DNA of 64,000 nucleotides from Clostridia bacterium. Lineage in GTDB: Bacteria > Bacillota > Clostridia > Oscillospirales > Acutalibacteraceae. This document shows positions 33,046 through 41,508 of this stretch, one piece after another. The notes beneath the pieces are model-generated. The model searched no databases and had not been told where the DNA came from. It saw nothing but the letters and a program-made list of their open reading frames with translations. The DNA is taken from contig JAFRQQ010000009.1 in assembly GCA_017428525.1 (NCBI GenBank), positions 186,001 through 250,000 on the forward strand. Reading direction: 5' to 3'. The translations under genes and the position numbers were made by a program. The stretch's first letter is position 1. Every line of letters starts with the position of its first letter.

Positions 33046-33079
33046 CCGCCGCCTGTCGAATGCAGACGGCGGTTTTTTT
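33046..33079 (+). terminator. Terminator after the dehydrogenase
   Basis: A 10-bp stem CCGCCGCCTG/CAGACGGCGG (33046-33072) followed by seven T (33073-33079). Confidence 0.9.
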
Positions 33080-33100: not shown

Positions 33101-33129
33101 TTGACTTTTTCGATGCAGCGTGCTAAAAT
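33101..33129 (+). promoter_or_regulatory. Sigma-A promoter of the transporter/S1P-lyase operon
   Basis: TTGACT (33101-33106), 17 bp, TAAAAT (33124-33129), about 40 bp before the DUF819 gene. It probably drives the next three genes, which are closely spaced. Confidence 0.7.
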
Positions 33130-33172: not shown

Positions 33173-34363
33173 ATGAGTTCCGTGATCTGTATTCTCATCT
33201 TTCTCGCCGTGCCGGCGCTGCTGATTCTGCTTTGTCGCAAGGTCCCGCTGCTCAACAAGCTCGGCGTCGTGCTGCTTTGCTATCTGCTCGGCATGCTCGT
33301 CGGCAATCTCGGCCTGCTGCCCAAGGCATTTATCACAGTCGGCCCCGGCGGCGACAGCCCGCTGACGCTCCTTCAAAGCATTTCGATCTGTCTCGGCTTG
33401 CCGCTCGTGCTCTTTTCCCTAGATATCAAAGGATTCTTCCGCATTGCGAAGAAAGGTTTGCTCTGCATGGTGCTCGCCTGCATTTCGGCCATTGCGGTCA
33501 CCTTTTTCCTGCATCTGTTTTTCCGCACGCGCGATCCGAATTCCGCACAGTATGCGGCCGGCGCGGTCGCGGTCTACACCGGCGGCACAGTCAATTTCGG
33601 CTCGATCCGCAATTCGATCGGCATATCCGACAACGATTATATCGTCTTCAACACCTATGACGCCGTGATTTCCGTGCTGTATATTTTCTTTCTCTCCACA
33701 GTCGGCAGAAAGTTCTTTACAAAGGTGTTTCGCCTGCCGCAGTTTGAGAAGGCGGAGACGGACGACGCGCAGTTCAATTCCACTGTCATGGATGAATCCG
33801 TGCATTCCTACGTCGCGCTGCTGAAAAAGGAGCATCTGCCCGGCCTGCTTGCGGCCTTCGGTTTATCCGTGCTGATTTTCGGCGTCTCCTACGGGCTGAA
33901 TATGCTCGTGTCCTCGTTCAACGCGAGCCTCGGTATGACCGTCATGATGCTTTCGATCACGACGATCAGCATCGCCCTGTCGTTTGTCAAAAAAATCCGT
34001 GAAATCAAATACAGCTTTCAGCTCGGCATGTATATCATCTATGTTTTCTGCTTTGCCGTTGCTGCCAGCGCGGATTTCCGCGCGCTGCTCAATTTCAGCA
34101 CGACCATCTTCTGCTATGTCGCGATTTCCATCGTATTCGGCACGCTTTTGCACGCGCTGCTGTGCAAACTGTTCCGCATCGACGCCGACACGATGATCAT
34201 CACGTCCGTTTCGGCAATCTGCTCCTCGCCCTTTGTGCCCGCCATGGCCGCTTCGCTCGGCAACAGCGCCGTCATGGTGTCCGGTCTTGTCACCGGCGTT
34301 GTGGGCTACGCGGTCGGCAATTACCTCGGCAACCTGGTCTATTATCTCTACGCTTTGATATAA
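33173..34363 (+). CDS. DUF819-family membrane transporter-like protein
   Basis: A 396-residue polytopic membrane protein with about ten hydrophobic segments, matching the DUF819 (YjcL-like) family, which has a fold related to sodium-coupled carboxylate and glutamate carriers. GAVAVYTGGTVNFGSI and SAICSSPFVPAMAASLGN are the two pseudo-symmetric re-entrant-type motifs. Substrate unknown. GGGAG lies upstream of both a GTG at 33164 (4 nt) and ATG 33173 (13 nt); the true start is uncertain. The lyase gene begins 12 bp after the stop, so the protein could import or export a compound handled by the lyase/ceramidase-like pair. Confidence 0.75.
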   Translation: MSSVICILIFLAVPALLILLCRKVPLLNKLGVVLLCYLLGMLVGNLGLLPKAFITVGPGGDSPLTLLQSISICLGLPLVLFSLDIKGFFRIAKKGLLCMVLACISAIAVTFFLHLFFRTRDPNSAQYAAGAVAVYTGGTVNFGSIRNSIGISDNDYIVFNTYDAVISVLYIFFLSTVGRKFFTKVFRLPQFEKAETDDAQFNSTVMDESVHSYVALLKKEHLPGLLAAFGLSVLIFGVSYGLNMLVSSFNASLGMTVMMLSITTISIALSFVKKIREIKYSFQLGMYIIYVFCFAVAASADFRALLNFSTTIFCYVAISIVFGTLLHALLCKLFRIDADTMIITSVSAICSSPFVPAMAASLGNSAVMVSGLVTGVVGYAVGNYLGNLVYYLYALI

Positions 34364-34375
34364 GGTGGTGGAAAG

Positions 34376-35911
34376 ATGAAAACGATTCCAGAATACGGCC
34401 TGCCCTACGAAGAAGTGCTCGCGCAGCTCGAAGCCTACGGCGCGGAGGATCCCGATTACAAAAGCGCAAAAACATGGAGCCTGGTCTACTACAAGGACGC
34501 GGAGTACACGCATTTTCTTTCGCAGGCATTTGAAAAATATATGTCTGCAAACGGTCTGAATCCGACGGCGTTCAAGAGCCTCAAGCGCTTTGAGAACGAC
34601 ATCGTCGCCTTTACCGCGGAGCTGCTGCACGCGGGAGAAAACGCGACCGGCTGCGTGACGAGCTGCGGCACGGAGAGCTGCATGCTTGCCGTGAAGACCT
34701 ATCGCGATTACGCGCGGCAGACAAAGCACATCACGCACCCCGAAATGATCGTTTCGCAGACCGCGCACGTCGCCTGGTTCAAAGGAGCCGAATACTTCGG
34801 CGTCAAGCTGCGCGTTGTGCCGCTCGATGAGAATTATCGCATCGATCTCAGGGAAGTCAAAAAGCGCATCAACCGCAACACGATCATGATCCTCGGCTCC
34901 GCGCCGGAATATCCGCACGGCATCATCGATCCGATTGCCGAGCTCGGCGCGCTCGGGAAAAAGCACAACATCCCCGTGCATGTGGATTGCTGCGTCGGCG
35001 GTTATCTGCTGCCCTTCATGGAGCAGGCAGGCGCACAGCTCCCGCTCTTCGATTTCCGTGCGCCCGGCGTGACCGGCATGACGGCGGATATCCACAAATA
35101 CGGCTTTGCGGCCAAGGGCTGCAGCTGCATTCTTTATGCAGATCCAGCGTATTTCCGCGCGCAGTGCTTTGTCAAGCACGACTGGCCCGGCGGCGTCTTC
35201 GCCTCGCCCGCCCTGCTCGGCACACGCCCCGGCGGCGCTTATGCGGCCGCATGGGCGGCAATCCGCGCCAACGGCAGACAGGGCTATATCGAAATGGCGA
35301 AGCAGACGATGGAAAACGCCGACCGGATCCGCAACGGCATCCGGGAGATCCCGGAGCTCGAGCTGATCGGCGATCCGCTTTGCAGCCTGATCTCCTATCG
35401 CTCCGTCGATCCCGTGAACTGCAATATCTTTGCCATTGGCGATCAGATGCAGGCAAAGGGCTGGCACATCGACCGTCTGCAGCATCCGGACGCGCTGCAC
35501 GCAATGATCACCTGCGCGCATACGGACGTGGTCGACGCGTATCTTGCGGACCTGCGCGAAGCGGTCGACGCGGTGCGCGGTCATCCGGAGCTGGCGTTCA
35601 AGGGGGACGCGGCAACCTATTCTGTTGTCGGGCATCTGCCGCTCGATCGCATTGTCAAAAAGAACGTGCTCGAGATCTTTGCAAAAGGATATGAAACCGG
35701 CGCCGGCGATATTGAGCTGTCGGACGGCGCTGCGATCACGGGCAATGAAAAGCTGGACGGCATCGTCAACAAGCTCATTTTAAAAGATATGGAAAAACCC
35801 GGCCTGCTCAGAAAATCGATCACAGCGGCAAAAGTCTCCGCCGTCGGTGTGCTTTCGGCGGGCGTTGCCGCGATCGGGGCCGGAATAATAAAGAAAGGAA
35901 AGAAGAAATGA
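34376..35911 (+). CDS. Sphingosine-1-phosphate lyase homologue
   Basis: A 511-residue group II PLP-dependent lyase. It resembles eukaryotic S1P lyase block by block: GTESCMLAVKTYRD (about 102-115), the VKLRVVPL segment, RNTIMILGSAPEYPHGIIDP (about 167-186), VHVDCCVGGYLLPFME, and the Schiff-base lysine in TADIHKYGFAAKG (about 238-250) followed by DWPGGVFASP and GTRPGG. The family splits phosphorylated long-chain bases into a fatty aldehyde and phosphoethanolamine. A hydrophobic C-terminal helix with a polylysine end (about 482-511) suggests membrane association, whereas the eukaryotic enzyme has its anchor at the N-terminus. It follows the DUF819 gene by 12 bp and overlaps the next gene by ATGA. 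Confidence 0.88.
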   Translation: MKTIPEYGLPYEEVLAQLEAYGAEDPDYKSAKTWSLVYYKDAEYTHFLSQAFEKYMSANGLNPTAFKSLKRFENDIVAFTAELLHAGENATGCVTSCGTESCMLAVKTYRDYARQTKHITHPEMIVSQTAHVAWFKGAEYFGVKLRVVPLDENYRIDLREVKKRINRNTIMILGSAPEYPHGIIDPIAELGALGKKHNIPVHVDCCVGGYLLPFMEQAGAQLPLFDFRAPGVTGMTADIHKYGFAAKGCSCILYADPAYFRAQCFVKHDWPGGVFASPALLGTRPGGAYAAAWAAIRANGRQGYIEMAKQTMENADRIRNGIREIPELELIGDPLCSLISYRSVDPVNCNIFAIGDQMQAKGWHIDRLQHPDALHAMITCAHTDVVDAYLADLREAVDAVRGHPELAFKGDAATYSVVGHLPLDRIVKKNVLEIFAKGYETGAGDIELSDGAAITGNEKLDGIVNKLILKDMEKPGLLRKSITAAKVSAVGVLSAGVAAIGAGIIKKGKKK

Positions 35912-36912
35912 ATCCGTTTTCACTCGCATGGGAATCCATCGTCAACTACAGCTTTTCCGACACGATGTCCCAGATCTCCGAGGCGCTGCATCACATGAAT
36001 TTCATTCAGTGGTTCACGCTTTACGGGATGGACTGGTCGCAGATCAGCAAGCTGGCGACCGACGGCAGCAGCTTCGGCGCGACCACCTTCGGTCAGTACT
36101 GCGCGCAGTACGCCGCTGTGATGACAAACTGGGCGTATACGCTCGCCGCCGTATTCAGCATCATTCTTCTGTTGTGCAAGAAGAACAAAAAATGGTATTG
36201 GTACATTTTCTTCGGCATCACCGCCGTCATGAGCGTCACGAGCGTGGGCATGCACACGGCCGATTACGGCGAATTCATGCCGGGCGTGATCACCACGAAG
36301 CTGCTCGCGAGCTTCGTCGACATGAGCTTCACGGAGCTGATGGCCTGGTCCGGCGTCGTGTGCTTCACGTTTGAATTCTATCGCGACGACATAAAAAAGC
36401 GCAACCGTATCGCGACCGCGGTCACGATCTTTGCCGCCTTTGTGCTGCTGATGCTGGCGTTTGAGGTGTTCATTCAGAAGAACCGCCCGCTCTGGATCGG
36501 CGGCCGCGACGAATTCGGCATGCCCTACGACATGGGCGGCGATCACGGCGGCCTGTCCTTTGCGGAATTCGGCTGCTTCATCACCTGCCTGCCGCTGCTT
36601 TTCATCCTGATCACGCGCATCCGCACCCTGCCGAAAAACGAGATCGGCCCCGTTGTGCTGCTTCTTTCGACCTTCCTTGTCGCGTTCATCATCACCTCAA
36701 TCTGGGGCGACAATGAGATCAATTCCATAGCGCAGGGCAATTTCCAGGGTCATTCCCTGTGGCATCTGCTGACCGCGATCGGCACCTTCGTGGCCTGCTT
36801 CTGGGTCGATACAAGAACGACGAATCAGAACCGCGAAAAAGAAATCGAAGAAGCCGTGCAGGCGGCGCTCGAAGCGAAAGAAAAAGAGCTTGCCGCCGCT
36901 GCCGCGAAATAA
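35908..36912 (+). CDS. CREST-superfamily (ceramidase-like) membrane hydrolase candidate
   Basis: A 334-residue membrane protein with about seven hydrophobic segments and a charged C-terminal coiled tail (about 310-334). Three motifs fit the CREST superfamily of alkaline ceramidases and PAQR proteins: SxxxH (SVGMH, about 112-116), an Asp in the following helix (SFVDMSF, about 136) and a late HxxxH (GHSLWHLL, His near 287 and 291). In ceramidases these residues hold zinc and cleave the amide of ceramide. The gene starts inside the stop of the S1P lyase gene (ATGA), which strongly suggests that the two proteins work on the same lipid. Family assignment is by motif only. Confidence 0.55.
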   Translation: MNPFSLAWESIVNYSFSDTMSQISEALHHMNFIQWFTLYGMDWSQISKLATDGSSFGATTFGQYCAQYAAVMTNWAYTLAAVFSIILLLCKKNKKWYWYIFFGITAVMSVTSVGMHTADYGEFMPGVITTKLLASFVDMSFTELMAWSGVVCFTFEFYRDDIKKRNRIATAVTIFAAFVLLMLAFEVFIQKNRPLWIGGRDEFGMPYDMGGDHGGLSFAEFGCFITCLPLLFILITRIRTLPKNEIGPVVLLLSTFLVAFIITSIWGDNEINSIAQGNFQGHSLWHLLTAIGTFVACFWVDTRTTNQNREKEIEEAVQAALEAKEKELAAAAAK

Positions 36913-36927
36913 TTCAGGCATCACGAA

Positions 36928-36957
36928 AGCCCTGCCGGAATCACGGCAGGGCTTTTT
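36928..36957 (+). terminator. Terminator of the S1P lyase operon
   Basis: A 10-bp perfect stem AGCCCTGCCG/CGGCAGGGCT with a 6-nt loop, followed by T at 36953-36957. Confidence 0.9.
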
Positions 36958-38592: not shown

Positions 38593-38739
38593 AATTTATT
38601 CCGATTCTAATAAACAATCATCAAAACCGCGTGAATAATCCTTGCATTTTTATTCCTCATAGATTAAAATAGTTTTATGAAACGAATTGCTTTTCATTCA
38701 TTCTTCTCCCCCATTCCATCTCCGAAAGGATGCGGCGTT

Positions 38740-39711
38740 ATGTTCACACCGGGCGCGATCGATTTTTCAAAGACAACCACTTTTTCCGCGGCGGAGCGGC
38801 ACAATCTGGTCACCGTGGATGCCCTGCGCGTGCCGTGCATAGAAGCGGATGATTTGTTTCAAAGCGACGAGCTGGACATTCTGGTCGAGAAGCTGAAACG
38901 GGCGCGGGCAAAGGGGCTCGGCGTCACCTGCTTTTACGGCGCGCATGTGATCAAATGCGGGCTGTCCAACTATCTGATTGAGTTAATCAAAGACGGCTAT
39001 ATCACACATCTTGCTTCCAACGGCGCGGGGTCGATTCACGACTTTGAGCTCGCCTTCCTCGGCGGCACGTCGGAGCATGTGCCGACCGCGATTGAGGACG
39101 GCTCCTTCGGCATGTGGGAAGAAACCGGCGCGTGGATGAACGAGGCAATCATCGACGGCGCAATGCAGGGCCTCGGTTACGGACAGAGCCTTGCCGCCTA
39201 CGTGGACGCGCATCCCGACCGCTTCCCTTATCGCGACAGCTGCGTATTCTATCGCGCTTATCAGATGGGCATTCCGGCAACCTATCACGTAACGATCGGC
39301 ACGGATATCATCCATCAGCATCCCAAGGCCGATTTCGCGGCGATCGGGCAGACCAGCGGCAGGGATTTCGCTTTCTTCTGCCAATCGCTGACCACGCTCG
39401 ATCCGGCCGGCGTGCACCTGAATATCGGCTCGGCCGTCACCGGCGCGGAGGTCTTTCTGAAAGCGCTGTCCATCGCGCGCAATCAGGGGCACGGGCTGCA
39501 GGAAATCACCACGGCAAATTTCGACCTCCTGCCGCTGGGCGATTATAAATCGCCGGTCGGTCAGGATCGCTATGAATATTACTACCGTCCGCGCAAAAAC
39601 ATCATCAACCGTCCGGTTTCCCTGGGCGGCACCGGCCTATATATCTGCGGCAATCATATGCAGACGATCCCGAGTTTATGGCGCAGGCTGCAGTTGGCGG
39701 AGGAAAAATAA
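38740..39711 (+). CDS. Deoxyhypusine synthase-like protein of a sugar-phosphate operon
   Basis: A 323-residue soluble protein. GAHVIKCGLSNYLIELI (about 68-84), HLASNGAGSIHDFELAFLGG (about 90-109) and DGSFGMWEET resemble the NAD-binding blocks of the deoxyhypusine synthase fold, and TGLYICGNH ends the protein. Bacterial homologues have no eIF5A target; their activity is unknown. The catalytic lysine region of true deoxyhypusine synthase was not recognised. ATG 38740 has AAAGGA upstream. It is the first gene of a five-gene run (38.7-43.0 kb) and abuts the kinase gene (stop TAA immediately followed by ATG). Confidence 0.5.
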   Translation: MFTPGAIDFSKTTTFSAAERHNLVTVDALRVPCIEADDLFQSDELDILVEKLKRARAKGLGVTCFYGAHVIKCGLSNYLIELIKDGYITHLASNGAGSIHDFELAFLGGTSEHVPTAIEDGSFGMWEETGAWMNEAIIDGAMQGLGYGQSLAAYVDAHPDRFPYRDSCVFYRAYQMGIPATYHVTIGTDIIHQHPKADFAAIGQTSGRDFAFFCQSLTTLDPAGVHLNIGSAVTGAEVFLKALSIARNQGHGLQEITTANFDLLPLGDYKSPVGQDRYEYYYRPRKNIINRPVSLGGTGLYICGNHMQTIPSLWRRLQLAEEK

Positions 39712-40704
39712 ATGAACCTAAACGAACTTACACAAATCCTGCAGGCCATCCGCACCGTGCGCGTGAGCATGATCGGCGACCTGTGTCTGGACGCTTACTG
39801 GCTGGCCGACATGAAAAAAAGCCGCCTTTCGCGCGAAACGCCGCATTATCCCCTGCCCGTGACGCAGGAGCGCTATGCGCTCGGCGGCGGCGGGAATGTG
39901 GCTGCAAATCTCGCGGCGCTGGGCGTGGGCAACGTGCGCGCGCTCTCCGTGGTCGGCAAGGACTGGCGCGCGTATGTGATGCGCGGCTGTCTGTCCGAAG
40001 CGGGCATTGACGATCAGGGCGTGCTCACGGACGATTCACGGATCACTCCATGCTATTGCAAACCGCTGCGCGCCGGCATTTCCGACGTCGTTTATGAAGA
40101 TCCTCGGCTGGATTTTGAAAATGACGCCACGCTTTCTGCCGAAACAGAAGAGCAGCTCCTGCAGGCGCTCGACGACGCGGCGGCAGGCAGCGATATCCTC
40201 GCCGTCTGCGATCAGCTGACCTTCGGCGTCATCACGCCGAACATCCGCGAACGGCTTTGCGAAATCGCAAAAAAAATGCCGGTGATCGTCGACAGCCGCG
40301 ACCGGATCGCCCTGTATCGGCACGCGATCGTCAAACCTAACGACGTGGAAGCCGCGGCGGCAACCGGTGTGCGACAGAACGAACCCGAAGCAGCGACGCT
40401 CCGCCTCTCCGAGAAAAACGGCGCGCCTGCCATCGTGACCGTCGGCGCAGACGGGGCGATCTGGTGCGCGCAGGGGCAGGCGGTCCGCGTTCCTGCCGTG
40501 AAAACAGCGCCCCCCGTGGATCCTGTCGGCGCGGGCGACACGTTCCTTGCGGCCTTCTGTGCGGCCTATGCCGCCGGCGTAGATGGCCCGCAAGCGGTCG
40601 CATTCGCCAATCTCGCCTGCGCTGTCACCGTGAAAAAGATCGGCATGACCGGCACGGCGTCGCCGGAAGAACTGCTGCTTCTGGCAGTGGATGAGGAAGC
40701 ATAA
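39712..40704 (+). CDS. HldE/RfaE-like PfkB-family sugar kinase
   Basis: A 330-residue ribokinase-type enzyme resembling the kinase half of HldE, which phosphorylates heptose 7-phosphate at C1. VSMIGDLCLDAYW (about 17-29), LGGGGNVAANLAALG (about 60-74), IVKPNDVEA near 205 and the PfkB catalytic motif DPVGAGDTFLAAF (about 268-280, catalytic Asp) are clear. There is no nucleotidyltransferase half. It begins right after the previous stop, and the HAD phosphatase gene starts immediately after its own. The true sugar is unknown. Confidence 0.75.
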   Translation: MNLNELTQILQAIRTVRVSMIGDLCLDAYWLADMKKSRLSRETPHYPLPVTQERYALGGGGNVAANLAALGVGNVRALSVVGKDWRAYVMRGCLSEAGIDDQGVLTDDSRITPCYCKPLRAGISDVVYEDPRLDFENDATLSAETEEQLLQALDDAAAGSDILAVCDQLTFGVITPNIRERLCEIAKKMPVIVDSRDRIALYRHAIVKPNDVEAAAATGVRQNEPEAATLRLSEKNGAPAIVTVGADGAIWCAQGQAVRVPAVKTAPPVDPVGAGDTFLAAFCAAYAAGVDGPQAVAFANLACAVTVKKIGMTGTASPEELLLLAVDEEA

Positions 40705-41508
40705 ATGAAACAGAGCATAGAAATCCTGCACCCCGCGCATCGCCCTGCGGGCCGCATTCGCGCCGCCGTGTTTGACTTTGACGGCACGATCTCCACGCTG
40801 CGCTGCGGCTGGGAGCAGGTCATGGGCCCGATGATGATCGAATTCCTTTCCGGCGGCAAAGAGGCTCCCGCCGCGCTGCAGGAGGAAGTCATGCAGTATA
40901 TCGATGAATCCACGGGCATCCAGACGATCTATCAGATGCAGTGGCTGGCCGAGAAAGCGGAAACGCTTTGCGGTGTGCGGCGCGATCCCTGGTGGTATAA
41001 GGCGGAATATCAGCGCCGCCTGGAAATTGCCATCGCCCATAAAAAGCAGGCGCTTGCCGACGGCGACGCGCAGCCGGAGGATTACCGGATTGCCGGCGCG
41101 GCCGAGCTGCTCAACGCGTTCAGAGAAAGAAATATTGCGCTTTATCTTGCGAGCGGCACGGATCATGACGATGTGCTGCACGAGGCGCAGCTGCTCGGCG
41201 TGCGCGATCTGTTCACGCTGATCGCCGGGGCGCCGCCGCATCAGGCCGCCTGCTCAAAGGAAGCCGTGCTCCGGCAGCTGTTCACGCAGGCGCATTTTTC
41301 GTGCGACGAGCTGCTGGTCGTCGGCGACGGAAAGGTCGAAATCGCCCTCGGCTGCAAGGCCGGCGCATTTACCCTCGGCGCGGCAACGGACGAAGTGCAC
41401 CGCAGCGGCTGGAATCCGGTCAAGCGCGCGCGGCTGCTGCAAGCGGGCGCGGACGCGATCGTCGGCGATTTCGCCGATCTTGATTCGATTCTGCGCTGGC
41501 TGGACTGA
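40705..41508 (+). CDS. HAD-superfamily sugar phosphatase
   Basis: A 267-residue HAD hydrolase: motif I AVFDFDGTISTL (about 24-35, nucleophile Asp), an alpha-helical cap (about 40-130), motif II LYLASGTD (about 150-157), motif III Lys in CSKEAVL, and motif IV LLVVGDGKVEIAL (about 203-215). A role like GmhB, removing a phosphate from a sugar bisphosphate, would fit between the kinase and the isomerase of this operon, but sequence similarity to GmhB itself is low. Confidence 0.7.
   Translation: MKQSIEILHPAHRPAGRIRAAVFDFDGTISTLRCGWEQVMGPMMIEFLSGGKEAPAALQEEVMQYIDESTGIQTIYQMQWLAEKAETLCGVRRDPWWYKAEYQRRLEIAIAHKKQALADGDAQPEDYRIAGAAELLNAFRERNIALYLASGTDHDDVLHEAQLLGVRDLFTLIAGAPPHQAACSKEAVLRQLFTQAHFSCDELLVVGDGKVEIALGCKAGAFTLGAATDEVHRSGWNPVKRARLLQAGADAIVGDFADLDSILRWLD

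Follow-up and report, generated by a model that had tools for sequence, protein, structure and literature searches.

The window analysed here is a stretch of 64,000 nucleotides from the 2.76-Mb draft genome of a Clostridia bacterium of the Acutalibacteraceae (assembly GCA_017428525.1, contig JAFRQQ010000009.1, positions 186,001 to 250,000). It contains three tandem genes on the forward strand, which encode a DUF819 membrane transporter, a pyridoxal phosphate (PLP)-dependent lyase of the sphingosine-1-phosphate (S1P) lyase family, and a seven-transmembrane (TM) protein of the CREST superfamily (Table 1). The transporter and lyase genes are separated by 12 bases, and the stop codon of the lyase gene overlaps the start codon of the membrane protein gene in an ATGA at 35908-35911. 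The three genes constitute one unit. Because the same genes recur together in unrelated contexts, their grouping is far beyond chance. The operon is rare and found in ruminant-gut Clostridia, where it may serve to dismantle sphingolipid-like lipids. An initial annotation, made from the sequence alone, had proposed that the gene products could together cleave ceramide and long-chain-base phosphates, from sphingolipids either of the host gut or of Bacteroidetes. The genes, their place, order, and overlap are all as given there. We computed gene order, family and fold assignments, motifs, conservation, and co-occurrence; loci and genomes of the survey are denoted by L- and G-numbers, respectively.

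Table 1. Genes and signals of the three-gene operon (positions within the window)
Feature	Position	Strand	Basis
DUF819 membrane transporter	33164 (GTG) or 33173 (ATG) to 34363	+	Pfam PF05684, 105 bits (cut-off 27)
PLP-dependent lyase, S1P-lyase family, 511 aa	34376..35911	+	similarity, residue mapping, tree
CREST-superfamily seven-TM protein, putative zinc amidase, 334 aa	35908..36912	+	motifs, predicted fold
Terminator-like stem-loop 3' of upstream iolG, upstream operon edge	33053..33079	+	pattern match only; such stem-loops no more numerous in the region than in shuffles
Promoter-like site TTGACT-17-TAAAAT, TG ahead of second hexamer	33101..33129	+	consensus match only, 10/12
Strong terminator hairpin closing the operon	about 36925..36957	+	RNA fold -25.7 kcal/mol, z -6.05

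Among the group II PLP enzymes, the lyase is closest in sequence, over its full length, to the S1P lyases. Compared with the S1P lyases in the PDB it scores 392 bits against the enzyme of Symbiobacterium thermophilum (StSPL, PDB 3MAD/5EUD), 345 against the human, 323 against the yeast, and 291 against the Burkholderia enzyme. S1P lyases of several organisms reach 217-392 bits versus 111 bits for the next family, MfnA, and a profile of five members scores at best 425 bits with S1P lyases versus 129 bits with other group II PLP enzymes. The strong similarity to S1P lyases noted initially is therefore real. An MfnA- or Gad-family amino-acid decarboxylase as the nearest family could be rejected by score, while decarboxylation as a reaction is taken up again below. 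The S1P lyase residues listed in a review (PMC6148460), which also supplied their roles, were mapped onto the lyase. The PLP residues G168, T169, H201, D274, C276, H310, and K311 are all retained, K241 being the PLP lysine of the window's enzyme, and in the PLP cup Thr takes the place of S353. Three of the five residues binding the substrate phosphate are retained (Y38, N59, and K247 as equivalents of Y105, N126, and K317), and the equivalent of the substrate-entry residue Tyr482 is also present.

In the tree, the clade of the window's lyase (100/100 support) is sister to the canonical S1P lyases, which include the human and the Symbiobacterium-like (G812) enzymes, and is placed outside and not within the clade of characterised S1P lyases, the rooting being uncertain. 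The final tree was built without L030, whose branch is too long to serve as an outgroup root. The lyase and its nearest kin carry a hydrophobic C-terminal stretch rich in Gly and Ala, and other gut members of the clade have a short amphipathic one. The non-gut member L123, the one non-gut end that was read, terminates earlier and has no such tail. The stretches of the gut lyases are probably membrane tails, which would fit a lipid substrate. In summary, the lyase shares with StSPL the similarity over the full length, the PLP residues, the equivalents of Y105, N126, K317, and Y482, and the Gram-positive host, but differs from it by A103L, H129N, and S353T, by its separate clade, its hydrophobic tail, and its DUF819 partner. 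The S1PL2021/2025 enzymes of Burkholderia pseudomallei have the same scaffold and likewise a residue other than His at the H129 position, but belong to another phylum, and a DUF819 or CREST partner is not described for them in the accessible parts of the respective papers. More remote S1P lyase relatives from other Bacillota (L129, L130, L131) have Asp or Glu instead of Tyr482 and an altered H129, and probably have other functions.

CREST proteins are characterised by an SxxxH motif at the end of TM2, an Asp at the start of TM3, and an HxxxH motif at the start of TM7 (PMC3146951). The membrane protein contains this full set in the defined places, as the initial annotation had recognised. The residues S112/H116, D138, and H282/H286 are invariant in 32 homologues, down to 42% identity, and are the counterparts of five residues shown to be required in ACER3 (PMC9436119). 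In the AlphaFold model (predicted local distance difference test, pLDDT, 87.6) the motif helices span residues 96-117, 130-157, and 281-333. Adiponectin receptors (AdipoR1/2) are the best-ranked folds in both Foldseek and VIA-align, and ACER3 is within the top eight of VIA-align. The VIA-align Z-scores are 17.2-18.9 for AdipoR1/2 and 17.5 for ACER3, compared to at most 15.7 for other seven-helix proteins. The model thus matches the seven-TM CREST fold. A fold search against BFVD gave general CREST and G protein-coupled receptor folds only. The protein therefore resembles human ACER3 and the adiponectin receptors in its seven TM helices, its motif positions, and its best structural matches, but it shares only 12-15% identity with them, scores below the Pfam Ceramidase cut-off, is bacterial, and is encoded in an operon with a lyase. 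Elsewhere, two tandem CREST genes with N-terminal extensions (409 and 414 aa) are present in the metagenome-assembled genome (MAG) Firmicutes bacterium ADurb.Bin300 (L069:6524-9002), and short-form CREST genes adjoin a Na/Pi cotransporter gene, away from the lyase, at L085, L087, L090, L092, and L093.

No partner of the lyase is as constant as the DUF819 gene, which the initial annotation had correctly placed ahead of the other two. In the gene-neighbour survey, which had been suggested there and has been run here, DUF819 is located directly 5' of the lyase gene on the same strand in all 18 loci of the window's lyase clade, three of which (L123-L125) belong to other families within the phylum. 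At L126, which encodes a more distant lyase sharing the Leu and Thr changes, DUF819 adjoins on the other strand. Among 40 relatives, DUF819 is restricted to the four genomes that have the lyase. At the Symbiobacterium-like locus (G812), DUF819 was not found within about 7 kb of the lyase gene. The AlphaFold model of the DUF819 protein (AF2, pLDDT 85) aligns over nearly its whole length with the aspartate:alanine exchanger AspT (VIA-align Z 26.4) and the citrate symporter CitS (Z 25.0), with the next group at 13.8. The protein is thus predicted to have an elevator-transporter fold of the AspT/CitS type, in line with the placement of DUF819 among the CPA/AT transporters (PMC8396727), but it differs from both in belonging to family PF05684 and in having an S1P-lyase-like enzyme as partner. 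The likeliest reading of the model is a transporter for small organic anions, which would be suited either to exporting a polar product of the lyase or to exchanging a small substrate against the product made from it. A substrate or role of DUF819 was not found in the literature searched. Some of the DUF819-lyase loci carry further genes. In one sub-clade (L034-L038, L080, L112, L113) a GH3 acyl-amido synthetase gene (PF03321) precedes the DUF819-lyase pair; it is often itself preceded by a gene for a GtrA-like membrane protein, and L113 has two GH3 genes in tandem. At L126 (9013-9771), a gene for a TauE/SafE-family exporter lies beside DUF819 and the distant lyase, as a single hint of sulfonate chemistry.

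The CREST gene is found at 33 loci in 84,980 species genomes. Nearly all of these are gut MAGs of ruminants and other herbivores, which agrees with the gut setting suggested earlier. Among the public relatives found, L061 is nearest (96% identity), a Clostridia MAG obtained from the rumen of water buffalo. The lyase is present in 13 of the 30 genomes with a CREST gene. Within 37 genomes of the genus, ten have the CREST gene and seven the lyase, and all seven lyase-positive genomes also have the CREST gene (Fisher p 1e-5, uncorrected for kinship). Across the class (391 genomes), lyase and CREST each occur in the same two only, which belong to different families. The lyase and CREST genes adjoin in two lineages, that of the window and L107 from another family, and a single gene separates them in a third (L080); in most other genomes with both they lie apart. 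The linkage of lyase and membrane protein, regarded as a dedicated pair in the initial annotation, thus recurs in other species, but the invariant partner of the lyase is DUF819. DUF819 and lyase form the conserved core, with which the CREST gene is more loosely associated in gut Clostridia. Spread of the operon by viruses or plasmids was rejected because the searches for viral contigs and plasmid matches were empty.

The best single reading of these data, which we favour at somewhat less than even confidence, is that the operon serves the catabolism of a sphingolipid-like lipid with an amide linkage. The CREST protein would act as a membrane zinc amidase and strip off the N-acyl chain. The lyase, anchored to the membrane through its C-terminal tail, would then bind the long-chain amine thus freed as an aldimine and split it between C2 and C3 in a retro-aldol reaction, with K241 as PLP lysine. 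A fatty aldehyde would be released along with a small polar amine. The latter would be phosphoethanolamine if the substrate were a long-chain-base phosphate, and taurine if it were a sulfonate. Finally, DUF819 would carry the small charged product across the membrane or exchange it. We infer the substrates, the direction of transport, the order of the reactions, and any kinase contributed from elsewhere in the genome. The reading is favoured because the lyase is nearer to S1P lyases than to decarboxylases, has retained residues, belongs to a sister clade, and carries a tail, because CREST motifs and fold go along with recurrent linkage and co-occurrence of lyase and CREST gene, and because a transporter resembling those for small organic anions suits the export of a polar product. 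In a more specific version, gut bacteria would dismantle sulfonolipids or ceramides of Bacteroidetes. The CREST protein would deacylate the lipid, the lyase would cleave the unphosphorylated amine (capnine to taurine and fatty aldehyde), and DUF819 would export taurine or phosphoethanolamine. We consider this version improbable. The literature searched contained neither this operon, nor another catabolic one of the kind, nor a capnine lyase. A search of the own genome with TIGR01825, a model that is not specific for serine palmitoyltransferase (SPT), gave an 18-bit match only. Synthesis of own sphingolipids was rejected since no clear SPT-type enzyme was seen, which given the model is weak evidence.

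Several observations weigh against a lipid-degrading operon. The membrane protein scores 22.7 bits with Pfam Ceramidase (PF05875), below the cut-off of 32.5, although this is still the best family, and it is also the family most often matched, weakly, by the homologues (18 of 32). Because of this score it is not filed as a ceramidase, and of the CREST ceramidase annotated initially the CREST type stands; the protein is CREST-like and not a demonstrated ceramidase. In the lyase, two of the five head-group residues are changed, A103L (L36) and H129N (N62). The change at H129 does not alter function by itself because an active Burkholderia S1P lyase has Gln there (PMC6148460, PMC5234717), and H129N as proof of a different substrate was therefore rejected. 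The operon does not contain a long-chain-base kinase, so that the proposed route from ceramide to S1P lacks a step; three DAGK_cat genes elsewhere in the genome are candidates only. Given the missing kinase and the altered pocket, S1P as the substrate is unproven, and of the proposed cleavage of long-chain-base phosphates it is the S1P-lyase-like scaffold that holds, in a separate clade. In addition, the lyase was not detected in 17 of the 30 CREST-positive genomes, which are drafts, and the co-occurrence counts of lyase and CREST are not independent of phylogeny. In nine further genomes with lyase relatives, including the non-gut members of the DUF819-lyase clade, a search that had no positive control did not reveal a CREST gene of the window's family. 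The initial annotation is thus partly supported: it identified the right parts, and its substrate claim went beyond the evidence.

The invariant position of DUF819, its restriction to lyase-positive relatives, and the likeness of its model to AspT and CitS could also be explained by a module for a small anionic amino acid and its product, next to which the CREST gene would be an incidental neighbour. The S1P-lyase-like enzyme would produce phosphoethanolamine or taurine by decarboxylating or cleaving a compound such as O-phosphoserine or cysteate. DUF819 would exchange this precursor against the product, in the way AspT handles aspartate and alanine. Such a module would not need a kinase. It would also be in agreement with the altered head-group pocket, with the non-gut members in which a CREST gene was not detected, and with the one tail-less non-gut end. 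However, the lyase retains the equivalents of Lys317, Tyr105, and Tyr482 and is far more similar to S1P lyases than to decarboxylases, the gut members have membrane-like tails, and the recurrent CREST linkage would be left unexplained. We regard the module as rather unlikely but as a serious rival. It accounts better for the changed pocket and for DUF819 being an invariant neighbour, if not for the tails and the CREST link.

Two other explanations are considerably less probable. The lyase could be an ordinary S1P lyase that scavenges long-chain-base phosphates of the host or its diet, as proposed for Symbiobacterium, with unrelated neighbours. An active S1P lyase is known from a Gram-positive bacterium (PMC3148216), and the Burkholderia enzyme mentioned above is active with Gln at the H129 position. 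It is hard to reconcile such a function with the ATGA coupling and the recurring CREST neighbour, or with a DUF819 link that is invariant in the clade and not seen near the Symbiobacterium-like gene, and we regard it as improbable. It is similarly doubtful, by a hair less so, that the bacteria remodel N-acyl aminolipids of their own, with GH3 enzymes joining fatty acids to amines, the CREST amidase removing the resulting amides, and the lyase handling a related amine without any foreign sphingolipid. N-acyl ornithine is the product of a bacterial GH3 enzyme, and gut Clostridia have been reported as a source of N-acyl amino acids (PMC12493201). GH3 genes are present in 30 of 37 genomes of the genus, two of them in the own genome (G000:C3:114630, C15:130780), and within the DUF819-lyase operon of several relatives, and more genomes of the genus have the CREST gene than have the lyase. 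However, the window's operon has no GH3 gene, and GH3 is much commoner in the genus than CREST. In addition, it is established chemistry that N-acyl amino lipids do not contain a beta-hydroxy amine that a retro-aldol lyase could use.

The operon is flanked on the 5' side by iolG (485 bits) and spoIIID, the latter being consistent with the spore former assumed initially, and on the 3' side by an oppositely oriented gene with a 2-oxoacid dehydrogenase acyltransferase domain. Further downstream (38677-41508), genes for a GSU2086-family protein (374 bits), a PfkB/HldE-like sugar kinase, and a HAD hydrolase follow in tandem. At L034-L037 and L112, a gene whose product weakly matches PI-PLC-X lies a short way downstream of the lyase gene, on the opposite strand; together with iolG beside the window's operon, breakdown of inositol sphingolipids is conceivable.

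An S1P lyase in a Gram-positive bacterium is already known from Symbiobacterium, so that such an enzyme in Firmicutes, which usually lack sphingolipids, is not new in itself. New are the DUF819-linked lyase clade, its pocket signature (A103L and H129N, accompanied by S353T), and the CREST link in gut Clostridia. If the operon indeed degrades lipids, ruminant-gut Clostridia would hold a compact breakdown pathway for sphingolipid-like lipids of their hosts or of Bacteroidetes. Lipid cross-feeding would then connect gut phyla, and DUF819 would gain a function. If the operon instead handles a small anion, a familiar lipid-enzyme scaffold would have been repurposed as a small-molecule lyase with its own exchanger. 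In either case, the lyase group constitutes a distinct and testable clade.

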